From Promethearchaeota archaeon (GTDB lineage: Archaea > Asgardarchaeota > Lokiarchaeia > Sigyniarchaeales > SOKP01): 64,000 nt of DNA. The notes beneath the pieces were generated by a model. That model was not told the DNA's origin and ran no database searches. It saw only the letters and a program-made list of their open reading frames with translations. The stretch is from positions 1-64,000 of the forward strand of contig JABCSY010000001.1 of NCBI GenBank assembly GCA_018238625.1. The letters run 5' to 3'. The position numbers were made by a program, and so were the translations under genes. Below are positions 11,956 to 18,589 of this stretch, piece after piece. The number at the start of each line of letters is the position of its first letter. The stretch's first letter is position 1.

Positions 11956-13083
11956 TTAAAAATACACTATCAAGATAACAATAGCAATATTGTAAATGAT
12001 GCTAGCGGTGATTGTGGTGAGAATATTTTTATTGGCTTCGTATAGTATACCTAAAAATATAAAAACCATGAAATTTACTAAAAAGAAATAAATTCCTATT
12101 GGTAAAGTAAACAATAGAAAAAGAACTGAGTATATTAGCGCGTTTATAAAAATTACTGAAGACCTCCCTAGTAAATTATTATCAAAACGTTCTTTTAGAG
12201 TATTATGTAACACTCCTCTAAATACTAATTCTGTAGAAATTGCAGATAAAGATAATATAACCATAAGCAATATTACCCAGATTAAATCTGTGTTTTGGAT
12301 TACCAGAGATTGATTGGCTAAATAAGAAAAAATATCAAAAAAATCTATTCCGGAGTCGTACATAAACTGTATTAATAACGAAGAGAAATTATCAATAATT
12401 ACTAATCCTATACTCCCGATTACGCCAATTAATAGCGCAATTAAAAATGGTCTTGCTTTAAAATTTAACCTTAATTTTTGAAAATTATGTTTTTTTGAAT
12501 AAATGTACCACACGGGATACAACCCAAATAAGACGTCAGGAATTTGACTTAATAGTATTGTTGTAATATTTAAATCAATTGGATCAGAAGATTCTAATTG
12601 TAGAGTTAATAACATAGTAATTAGTAATCGAATAATTATATATACCATAAGAGAGTTACCAAAAACGCTAATACCCTCTCTAAAATTCCAAGTCTCTTTT
12701 TTTATTATAAATTTTTGTTCTGGCACCAACTTTTTATTTGTAAAGACATAACCCGTTTTATTGAGATGTGTTTCACTTGATTGTGTTTTTTGAAGTTTTG
12801 GTATCTTTTCTAGCTTAGTATTACATATAGGGCATTGTTCTAGTACAGAAGAGGTTATTATCGACCCACAACCAGAACATTTTCTTGAAACTGTTTTTTT
12901 TTGAGGTGGTTTTGTTCCTTTGCTTGGCTCAATTTTTACTACGAGTTTTCCACATTTAGGACAGTAGATTTTGCTTTCTTCAATTTGAGTCCCACAGTAC
13001 ACGCAATGTTTTACTATTTGTTGTTTTTCATTTTCTTTTGACATTATACTCAAAAAATTAGGGTATTTTCTACTAAAGCACAC
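11956..13083 (-). CDS. Double zinc-ribbon protein fused to CPBP-like membrane domain (probable pseudoprotease)
   Basis: CVYCGTQIEESKIYCPKCG and CSGCGSIITSSVLEQCPICN; TELVFRGVLHNTL in TM domain. Confidence 0.75.
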   Translation of the reverse strand: MCFSRKYPNFLSIMSKENEKQQIVKHCVYCGTQIEESKIYCPKCGKLVVKIEPSKGTKPPQKKTVSRKCSGCGSIITSSVLEQCPICNTKLEKIPKLQKTQSSETHLNKTGYVFTNKKLVPEQKFIIKKETWNFREGISVFGNSLMVYIIIRLLITMLLTLQLESSDPIDLNITTILLSQIPDVLFGLYPVWYIYSKKHNFQKLRLNFKARPFLIALLIGVIGSIGLVIIDNFSSLLIQFMYDSGIDFFDIFSYLANQSLVIQNTDLIWVILLMVILSLSAISTELVFRGVLHNTLKERFDNNLLGRSSVIFINALIYSVLFLLFTLPIGIYFFLVNFMVFIFLGILYEANKNILTTITASIIYNIAIVILIVYF

Positions 13084-15773: not shown

Positions 15774-16424
15774 ATGGCACTTAAAAAAAAACTTTTTCCC
15801 CGTAAAGCTAAAGAAAAAGATGAATTAGTTATTAAAGCTAAATCGCACATTAGAAAAATAGCGTTAGCAAATAAAACTTACAACAGAAGATCAGAGATTG
15901 CTAGAAAAAACGCTAAAATTGCGATAAAGAGAGGAGAAAGAACTAGAGCGAAAAATTATTTAATTCAACACAAACAATATCAGTTGAAAGTAGATCGCGC
16001 GAACAACATTCGAGCCAGAATAGAAAGACAGATAGAGGCTATCGAAGAGGGTCAAATGATATCAATGACAGGCGATTTAATGGGCGGAATTAGGGATGAG
16101 CTAAAAGGTATTGCAACTCAGGTTGCCCCCGAAAAGATCGCTGAAATCGCAGAGGACTCTGAATTATATGTGTCTGAAATAGAAGAGTCTGCCGATATTC
16201 TTGCCGGAGATCCCGAAATTGATTTAGCAATCGATGTAACCGACGATTTAAATCAACTTGAAACTGAGATGCTACTGGAGCAGGGCGGCCAAATGCCAGA
16301 AGTACCTGCCGATGACTTGCAATATCTGAGCGAGTTTGACGAGATGGAAGAAGAGACTGAAATCAAAACAAAAGCAAAATTAGAAGACGAAATCGACAAA
16401 CTTAGAAAAGAATTAGAAACTTAA
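15774..16424 (+). CDS. ESCRT-III/Snf7-family protein
   Basis: Basic helical N-terminus, then QHKQYQLKVDRANNIRARIERQIEAIEEG...GDLMGGIRDELKGIATQVAPEKIAEIAEDSELYVSEIEESADIL, with Snf7/CHMP4/6-like register, and acidic C-terminal half ending in KLEDEIDKLRKELET; SD-like AAAGGAGTG upstream. Confidence 0.88.
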   Translation: MALKKKLFPRKAKEKDELVIKAKSHIRKIALANKTYNRRSEIARKNAKIAIKRGERTRAKNYLIQHKQYQLKVDRANNIRARIERQIEAIEEGQMISMTGDLMGGIRDELKGIATQVAPEKIAEIAEDSELYVSEIEESADILAGDPEIDLAIDVTDDLNQLETEMLLEQGGQMPEVPADDLQYLSEFDEMEEETEIKTKAKLEDEIDKLRKELET

Positions 16425-16483
16425 TTTTTTTAAACTTATTCTCTTTACCAATTTTTAATCGATCTTAAGTAGTTTTTTACTTT

Positions 16484-18589
16484 TTAGGTAAAATATCTTT
16501 TTCTATCGAATTTTTTGGCATTTCTTCTTAAAAAATCTTCTTCTTGCATATCTTCGTCGATCGATTCGATTTTTTTATCAATCGTGTAGAAATCCTTTTG
16601 TAAGTTCTTAAAATTTTTAAAGAAATCAATTTCCGAGATATTTCCAGATTCAAATTTTGATTCTAACGTTTTTAACGTTTCTTCGAGGCTATATTTTTCT
16701 TTTTCCAATTCAAACATTTTTTTACTTCTCGTTTTATTCATTTTCTTTGAATTAGGTCTTGGAAGATCGTTCGGTTGATTTGACATATTGTCATTATTAA
16801 ACAATTCCGAAAGATGATTCCTCGAATATTCGTTATATTGTGGCATCTGTCTAACTTTTTCATTCAATCGATAATAAGCCGGTTCGTACGAGCGATCATC
16901 AAAATCATTTCTATTTAATGGATTAGAAGAAGGGGCGCTGGATCTTTGTAATTGTTCTAATTTTCTCATTAGAAAGTTTTTCTCTTCAGCATCAGAAAAA
17001 CTGCTTTTATATCCGCTGTTAGACCTTACAGGATCGTAATTCTGTATCCTACCCCTCTCATGGAAATTTTGCATGAAGAATTCATTTTGATTGTAATTTG
17101 GAGGTAAGTAGTGCCTTATAGTGTTATTATAACGATTTAAATCTTCAGTAGTTTGAATTTGGCCGAATCCTTGATTAGAAAATCCTAGATTTTTTTGATA
17201 AAGCAATGGATTTCCGGGCACATTTTGATAATTATTAAATGGATAATTAAAATTATTTGGATAGGTGGGTTGATTTTGATCATGTGGAGCTTGGTGTGGA
17301 ATTTGATTTGGTAAATTCCTTGGATTTTGATTGAATAATGGGTTGGCATTGTGAGGATTAACGAGTACATTATTCGAATTAACATTATTATATTGGCATT
17401 TAATACTAAAGAAAGAATTTATTGTCTCCTCAATATAATTAGTTAAATCGCTCAAATCGACATCAATATCGTAAAGCTTTTTCGCTGCTACTTTATCATA
17501 CACAATAGTTTCATCAAAACTTCTGGCTAGTAGAATATAATCCAATACCCGCGAAATAGAATTTGTAGGAAGAGTGAATTCATATCTACCATAAGGAAAT
17601 TCGATATAAAGCTTTTTAAACACCTTACCTTTTATTTTAACGCTAGTTAAATCTTTAACCGGTGCTTTAAAGATGCCTTTTTGCTTTCTCTTTAATCTTC
17701 CATATTCGTGAACAAACGACAAGTCAAAATTAGTAATAAACAGGATACCTTTATCTTTTTTGTATTTATCTTGTGTGTTAAGACCATTAGCTAATTTTGC
17801 GTATATCGCATAAACAGGTTTTTCATCATCTGCTAAATTAAGAAATTTAACATAGTTTTTGAAATAAAATGTGATTTTATCTATGAAAATAAGATTTTTT
17901 AACAGGTTATCTATGCTAGTATTTATTGTTTTTACATTACTCTGAATAAAATCAGTTATAGAATTATAGCTTCTATTTAAATTTTCTAAAATGTCTTCTA
18001 TAATTCTTATGTTAGAATTTTGTTGAGTGTAAATATTAAAAAAATATTCTTTATTTATAGATAAATGTTGGATAAAATTATGTATTTTTTCGAGAAGAGT
18101 TTCTTTTGCGTATATAAATAGTTTAAAGAGCGCTAAGAGGTCGGACTCCATTTTTGGATAATGATAACACCTTATTGGAGGCGATCGTGCATCTATTACT
18201 TTCTGCCTCATCATATAAAGGGAGTTTACTATATCTCTGAATGGATCAATAAAGGAGCGTGCGTTTTTAATTAATTCTAAAAATTGTTTTTCTAAATCTT
18301 CCTTCTTTTCGTAGATATTAACAATTTGATGAGAATGACACTTGGGACAAGATTTTAAAAGTTGGTTCGTTTGGATTATATTCACATTTCCACAATCGTT
18401 ACAAATCTTTTGTTTGCTTGATCCTGAGATGGTTATATTTTTTGAATTGCAATCTTGACAAACATAAGAATCGATTTTTTCTTCGTGAAGGCAATCAGAA
18501 CAACAACTAACGCCACAATTTTCACAATAATACGCTATCTTCACGTTTCGCTGGCAAAAATGACATATTTGGAAGTGTTGCTCCGACAT
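16484..18589 (-). CDS. Multidomain protein: N-terminal zinc fingers, coiled-coil, PH/GRAM-like segment, N/P/Q-rich low-complexity linker, C-terminal helical hairpin
   Basis: CHFCQ...CENC...CSDC...CQDC...CNDC...CPKC; GILFITNFDLSFVHEYG...KLYIEFPYGRYEFTLP; NPLFNQNPRNLPNQIPHQAPHDQNQP...; LEETLKTLESKFESGNISEIDFFKNFKNLQKDFYTID. Confidence 0.8.
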   Translation of the reverse strand: MSEQHFQICHFCQRNVKIAYYCENCGVSCCSDCLHEEKIDSYVCQDCNSKNITISGSSKQKICNDCGNVNIIQTNQLLKSCPKCHSHQIVNIYEKKEDLEKQFLELIKNARSFIDPFRDIVNSLYMMRQKVIDARSPPIRCYHYPKMESDLLALFKLFIYAKETLLEKIHNFIQHLSINKEYFFNIYTQQNSNIRIIEDILENLNRSYNSITDFIQSNVKTINTSIDNLLKNLIFIDKITFYFKNYVKFLNLADDEKPVYAIYAKLANGLNTQDKYKKDKGILFITNFDLSFVHEYGRLKRKQKGIFKAPVKDLTSVKIKGKVFKKLYIEFPYGRYEFTLPTNSISRVLDYILLARSFDETIVYDKVAAKKLYDIDVDLSDLTNYIEETINSFFSIKCQYNNVNSNNVLVNPHNANPLFNQNPRNLPNQIPHQAPHDQNQPTYPNNFNYPFNNYQNVPGNPLLYQKNLGFSNQGFGQIQTTEDLNRYNNTIRHYLPPNYNQNEFFMQNFHERGRIQNYDPVRSNSGYKSSFSDAEEKNFLMRKLEQLQRSSAPSSNPLNRNDFDDRSYEPAYYRLNEKVRQMPQYNEYSRNHLSELFNNDNMSNQPNDLPRPNSKKMNKTRSKKMFELEKEKYSLEETLKTLESKFESGNISEIDFFKNFKNLQKDFYTIDKKIESIDEDMQEEDFLRRNAKKFDRKRYFT

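Follow-up and report, generated by a model that had tools for sequence, protein, structure and literature searches.

In Asgard archaea, the closest described counterpart of the protein analysed here is Znr_PH_CC_SB (also written Znr_CC_PH_SB; cog.011556), an Asgard-only family that is absent from eukaryotes, is likely ancestral in Asgard archaea and has been proposed as a likely ESCRT-I component of these organisms, with all three of its zinc modules called zinc ribbons (Makarova et al. 2024, PMC10936438). In the literature searched, this study was the only one found on the family. For the ESCRT-III subunit encoded next to it, the closest described system is Loki GC14_75 CHMP4-7 (PDB 9FN1), which forms helical filaments (PMC11791191). 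ESCRT-I Vps23/TSG101 carries its steadiness box at the C-terminus after a flexible, proline-containing linker, as does the adaptor described below, whereas the adaptor has no UEV domain and contains zinc fingers and a PH domain instead. Similarly, ESCRT-II Vps36 (GLUE plus NZF) has a PH-type fold and zinc fingers in common with the adaptor, which however lacks EAP30 winged helices and has its zinc fingers preceding the PH domain and not inserted in it.

The gene pair studied here lies in a 64,000-nucleotide stretch of a Lokiarchaeal genome (hereafter the window). By its architecture and the published description, the 701-aa protein of this pair is an ortholog of Znr_PH_CC_SB, with which it shares zinc modules, a PH domain, a helical/coiled-coil region, a steadiness box and the company of ESCRT genes. 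It differs in its long disordered linker, in which two motifs are conserved, in four of six CxxC pairs that look B-box/FYVE-like and not like simple ribbons, and in the split of the gene cluster. The split cluster, the B-box/FYVE-like finger, the two linker motifs and the inositol-phosphate-synthase neighbours in sister families were not seen in the text of PMC10936438. The first-pass annotation was right in its observation and largely right in its interpretation, but the family is already published and the observation mostly known. The present analysis adds the cluster split, a view of how deep the linkage to ESCRT-III goes and which ESCRT-III class it involves, and more precise readings of the modules.

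Organization of the locus and the ESCRT-IIIB gene

The features of the locus are as follows (residues are those of the 701-aa adaptor).

15774..16424, + strand: ESCRT-IIIB (Vps20/32/60-like, CHMP4-7-like) gene, 216 aa; Pfam Snf7 8.7e-9, phmmer match to 9FN1, B clade 100/100
16293..16319, + strand: tail of ESCRT-IIIB, candidate MIM2-like motif MPEVPADDL, read from sequence, a putative Vps4 MIT contact
16425..16483: intergenic region of 59 bp, rich in T, separating the stop codons of the convergent genes
16484..18589, - strand: Znr_PH_CC_SB adaptor gene, 701 aa; matches in relatives (55/58), profile in Asgard genomes (170/180), published cog.011556 architecture
16493..16756, - strand: steadiness box helical hairpin, residues 612-699; Vps23_core, 2p22_A, AlphaFold
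16757..17365, - strand: disordered N/P/Q-rich linker, residues 409-611; pLDDT mostly <50, composition
16799..16819, - strand: conserved motif NHLSELF, residues 591-597; majority-residue fraction 0.72 over 589-598
16943..16990, - strand: conserved motif around LMRKLEQ, residues 534-549, MIM1-like; majority-residue fraction 0.58
17525..17818, - strand: PH domain, residues 258-355; AlphaFold, bPH_3/GRAM in members, Foldseek
17840..18316, - strand: helical bundle, residues 92-250; AlphaFold, pLDDT mostly >90
18338..18565, - strand: zinc modules, residues 9-84; conserved cysteines, Pfam in members, spacing, PDB profile matches

The Snf7-type protein that the first-pass annotation had placed at 15774-16424 on the plus strand was confirmed as an ORF with a Pfam Snf7 score of 35.7 bits against a cut-off of 27.3, and the coordinates and strands of both ORFs agree with a convergent pair 59 bp apart. 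Its best solved relative in a phmmer search is 9FN1 (E=1.3e-91; 69% identity over 217 aligned columns), deposited as a Vps20/32/60-like ESCRT-III; the Loki GC14_75 protein is an ortholog of the same ESCRT-III class, and no architectural difference between the two was found. Asgard Snf7 trees contain two clades, A and B (support 100/100), and the window protein falls in the B clade together with 9FN1 and the Heimdall ESCRT-IIIB (9ftl). Elsewhere in this genome, the Snf7 copy located beside Vps4 (contig C125) belongs to the A clade, its best matches being CHMP2A and CHMP1B. MIM2 motifs are an established class, and the sequence MPEVPADDL near the end of ESCRT-IIIB looks like one of them, a candidate contact for the MIT domain of Vps4. 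Near the locus, window positions 11956-13083 encode a CAAX-protease (Rce1-like) protein that carries zinc ribbons at its N-terminus.

Domain architecture of the adaptor

From the letters of the sequence, the 701-aa protein had been described as having at least three CxxC-type zinc modules, a coiled-coil-rich middle, strands resembling PH/GRAM, an N/P/Q-rich linker and a C-terminal helical hairpin, and each of these elements was recovered. The protein alone gives sub-threshold Pfam/NCBIfam matches only (Vps23_core 0.013, PH_SLA1 0.064), and 24 orthologs were scanned with Pfam to resolve them. Whole-chain AlphaFold prediction revealed folded regions at residues 5-408 and 612-693, separated by a largely disordered linker (409-611).

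The N-terminal region contains six CxxC pairs (C9/12, 22/25, 30/33, 44/47, 63/66 and 81/84), enough for three zinc sites, whose cysteines are invariant or near-invariant across Asgard relatives. The first four pairs are spaced C-x2-C-x9-C-x2-C-x4-C-x2-C-x10-C-x2-C and are followed by a two-pair zinc ribbon. Compared with the well-known eight-cysteine spacing of FYVE fingers, this arrangement fits a FYVE finger, and it is also compatible with a B-box-like finger. Among the 24 orthologs, zf-B_box was matched in 8 (best 8.1e-5) and ANCHR-like_BBOX in 3 (best 1.3e-5), and the N-terminus of the family profile, searched against solved chains, matched a RING finger (RNF4; 5.6e-6) and, weakly, the TRIM28 B-box and FYVE fingers. 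The basic motif R(R/K)HHCR, by which FYVE domains bind PI3P, is absent from the adaptor, the sequence at that place being KIAYYCEN. By pattern only, the first four pairs thus look like a B-box/FYVE-like finger.

The segment 86-413 was predicted by AlphaFold with a pLDDT of 89.3 and a pTM of 0.81, and contains in order the helical bundle (92-250), which accounts for the coiled-coil-rich middle, a PH domain of seven strands with a closing helix (258-355) and another helix. The PH assignment agrees with matches of orthologs to bPH_3 (7/24, best 3.8e-7) and GRAM (1/24, 9.6e-5), and with Foldseek matches of the PH fold to TBC1D23 (TMt 0.68), Exo84 (0.70) and the ESCRT-II GLUE domain 2hth (0.60).

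The linker consists of N, P, Q, S and Y to 51% and its conservation is low (majority-residue fraction 0.27-0.36) outside two islands. One of these, around LMRKLEQ, reaches 0.58, where the linker on either side has 0.36 and 0.27, and appears to resemble a MIM1 motif; the other is NHLSELF. The C-terminal hairpin was predicted with a pLDDT of about 90 up to residue 680. The Vps23_core model was matched by 11 of the 24 orthologs (best 4.8e-6), and the family profile found the yeast ESCRT-I Vps23 core among solved chains (2p22_A 3.3e-5, 2f66_A 9.5e-5, 2caz_A 2.3e-4), with TSG101, Vps28 and Vps37B below significance in the same search. Since, in addition, the steadiness box of an Asgard UEV-Vps23 aligns to this hairpin, the C-terminus of the adaptor is a steadiness box.

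Distribution and gene order across Asgard archaea

Matches to the adaptor were obtained in 55 of 58 sampled related genomes, which excludes a chance ORF. A profile of the family has matches in 170 of the 180 Asgard genomes that are at least 80% complete, although in some families these are weak or partial, or may come from a steadiness box in a different protein, and the adaptor family is almost phylum-wide in Asgard archaea. A scan of the collection with the family-level alignment gave named matches that are all from Lokiarchaeota/Lokiarchaeia.

A lack of conserved adjacency in related genomes together with the lack of a PH/GRAM or ESCRT-related fold had been named beforehand as what would refute the adaptor reading. 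Both conservation and fold were found, the adjacency being kept in many families. Among relatives, Snf7 is convergent on the 3' side of the adaptor in 38 of the 39 contigs carrying both genes. The same holds for 50 of 59 named Loki loci; of the others, six stop in the adaptor gene or at its end and a seventh stops 1 kb beyond it, while L090 and L104 contain no Snf7 in the 6.0 and 2.2 kb downstream of the adaptor. Within the own family of this genome the pair lies inside a wider conserved block with L35Ae, DHQS and GH57, and hence adjacency in this family alone is weak evidence. In family f2 (G040, G044) and in f10 the pair is kept with different outer neighbours, and the convergent pair recurs elsewhere in the phylum, in f8, f10, f13, f21, f22 and f25, often as part of Vps22-Vps25-Vps4-IIIA-IIIB-adaptor. 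Most of the lineages covered thus have the adaptor convergent and downstream of ESCRT-III. The adjacent Snf7 is of the B type in f1, f2, f10, f13, f21, f22 and f25, and of the A type in f8. Other arrangements occur in f15, where a distant relative lies upstream in tandem, and in f12, where Snf7 follows 3 kb downstream in tandem; no adaptor-Snf7 linkage was found in f20, and in several f4 to f7 genomes the adaptor is not beside Snf7.

The full order, (Vps22), Vps25, Vps4, ESCRT-IIIA, ESCRT-IIIB and adaptor, is present in f13, f21 (L156) and f8, the latter with only one Snf7. Some further features of these neighbourhoods were observed. Genes for a calcineurin-like phosphoesterase and a UbiA prenyltransferase precede the adaptor in f21 (L156:6631-8303, L157:6122-7743), and a phosphoesterase related to the f21 one adjoins the adaptor in L049 and L050. 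In f15 (L158:7495-8940) the cluster is of Heimdall type, with a UEV-steadiness box-Vps28 fusion at the other end, as published for HeimAB125.

A split ESCRT cluster

The first-pass annotation had stated that Vps4, EAP30 and Vps25 are missing from the window, and indeed none was identified among the window ORFs; the genome-wide matches are on contig C125. This contig encodes a Vps22-like protein (+), Vps25 (-), Vps4 with an MIT domain (-) and ESCRT-IIIA (+). The contigs extend far beyond both breakpoints (34 and 109 kb), so the split is real and not due to an assembly end. The absence of these genes from the window is no departure from the common Asgard arrangement: the window is without Vps4 because the ancestral cluster was split, with its other half on C125. 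The pair in the window is the part with ESCRT-IIIB and the adaptor, which came away from the ancestral Asgard cluster in this lineage of Lokiarchaea. The same genome also has ubiquitin-like and E2-like genes, a Vps28-C protein and a protein of 475 aa that matches the adaptor steadiness box at its C-terminus.

In f22, f10 and f5, a gene for a HerA-like (DUF87) ATPase lies between ESCRT-IIIA and ESCRT-IIIB (L154:3863-6913, L053:9817-12657 and L060:5173-7941, respectively), and these arrangements are possible intermediates of the cluster split. No mention of HerA was found in the Asgard ESCRT literature searched. What looks like an interruption of ESCRT-IIIB in L053 comes from a stretch of Ns in the record and is not a biological stop. 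A HerA-like gene is also near ESCRT-IIIB in L047, and a 345-aa protein without a Pfam match then follows in L154 and L047. The L047 contig (G047:C290) is binned with f4/g12, its adaptor and ESCRT-III group with f22/f10, and it is probably a contaminant in that MAG.

Proposed function and alternative explanations

We favour the reading, with a probability of about 0.66, that the 701-aa protein acts early, as an ESCRT-I-like adaptor recruiting ESCRT-III, and that its locus is the detached half of the ancestral cluster. The initial guess of a membrane-binding, PH-like ESCRT adaptor is well supported by the steadiness box, the predicted PH fold and the convergent ESCRT-III linkage in many families, and the published proposal (PMC10936438) independently agrees with the ESCRT-I reading. 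Counting against it are the A-type neighbour in f8, the location of the adaptor away from Snf7 in f20 and several f4-f7 genomes, the wider conserved block around the pair in the own family and the sub-threshold Pfam matches of the protein alone; moreover, to our knowledge, phosphoinositide signalling is not known in archaea. In the proposed mechanism, the steadiness box would form a headpiece with further proteins that carry this domain (Vps28, SB proteins), the PH domain would dock on an anionic, possibly inositol-bearing, membrane lipid, and the conserved zinc fingers at the N-terminus may bind cargo, ubiquitin or another protein signal. The conserved linker motifs may catch Vps4 or ESCRT-III. 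The adaptor would thereby deliver ESCRT-IIIB to the membrane, and the remodelling there would be completed by ESCRT-IIIA and Vps4, whose genes are on C125.

A less probable alternative is a fused ESCRT-0/ESCRT-II-like cargo receptor, whose zinc fingers and PH domain would act like the NZF and GLUE of Vps36 on ubiquitin and lipid, with the steadiness box only tethering it to ESCRT-I. The Vps36_ESCRT-II Pfam model, matched in 3/24 orthologs (best 0.0011), and the GLUE domain among the Foldseek matches point this way, as does the genome itself, in which neither the 701-aa protein nor any other gave a Pfam UEV match, yet ubiquitin-like and E2-like genes are present. However, the Vps36 matches are weak, the PH domains of TBC1D23 and Exo84 fit as well or better, and Pfam found no EAP30 winged-helix pair in the 701-aa protein, the EAP30 match of this genome being on C125. 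It is very improbable that the pair reflects inherited local gene order only, with the large protein working elsewhere, for example as a zinc-ribbon nucleic-acid or transcription factor. Such an origin would fit the block L35Ae, adaptor, Snf7, DHQS, GH57 conserved in the own family and the fact that convergent genes are not co-transcribed, but the pair persists with other outer neighbours in f2 (G040, G044), f10, f13, f21, f22 and f25, Vps4 and Vps25 share the cluster with the adaptor in f8, f13 and part of f21, and the adaptor carries an ESCRT-I-specific domain. Least credible is a RhoGEF-like (DH-PH) regulator of Asgard small GTPases lying beside ESCRT-III by chance: DH-PH RhoGEFs occupy the top Foldseek ranks for the helical and PH segment (E down to 3.3e-7), but the arrangement fails to superpose (TM-scores <=0.38, rmsd about 20 A), for which reason a DH fold packed on the PH domain was rejected, and the steadiness box and ESCRT linkage would be left unexplained.

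A further reading, which we consider unlikely as a whole, is that this one-chain adaptor merges roles that are distributed over ESCRT-0, -I and -II in eukaryotes (zinc-finger receptor, PH lipid reader and steadiness-box scaffold), recruits ESCRT-IIIB directly and reads an archaeal inositol phospholipid. The last part is hinted at by genes for myo-inositol-1-phosphate synthase near the adaptor in three sister families (L048:2262-3350, L049:5153-6244, L050:8227-9306), found within a few kb in a single genome from each of f5, f6 and f7. These neighbours are only a lead to the lipid, as a gene order inherited from a common ancestor may also explain them.

Should ESCRT-III of Asgard archaea be recruited by the adaptor, this would show a possible way of ESCRT membrane targeting outside the eukaryotic arrangement of Vps36 and UEV-Vps23, and the Loki CHMP4-7 filaments, which have been reconstituted in vitro, would gain a partner that can be tested. 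The cluster split is at the same time a practical warning, as anyone seeking Vps4 next to this ESCRT-III gene will overlook half of the system in Lokiarchaea.
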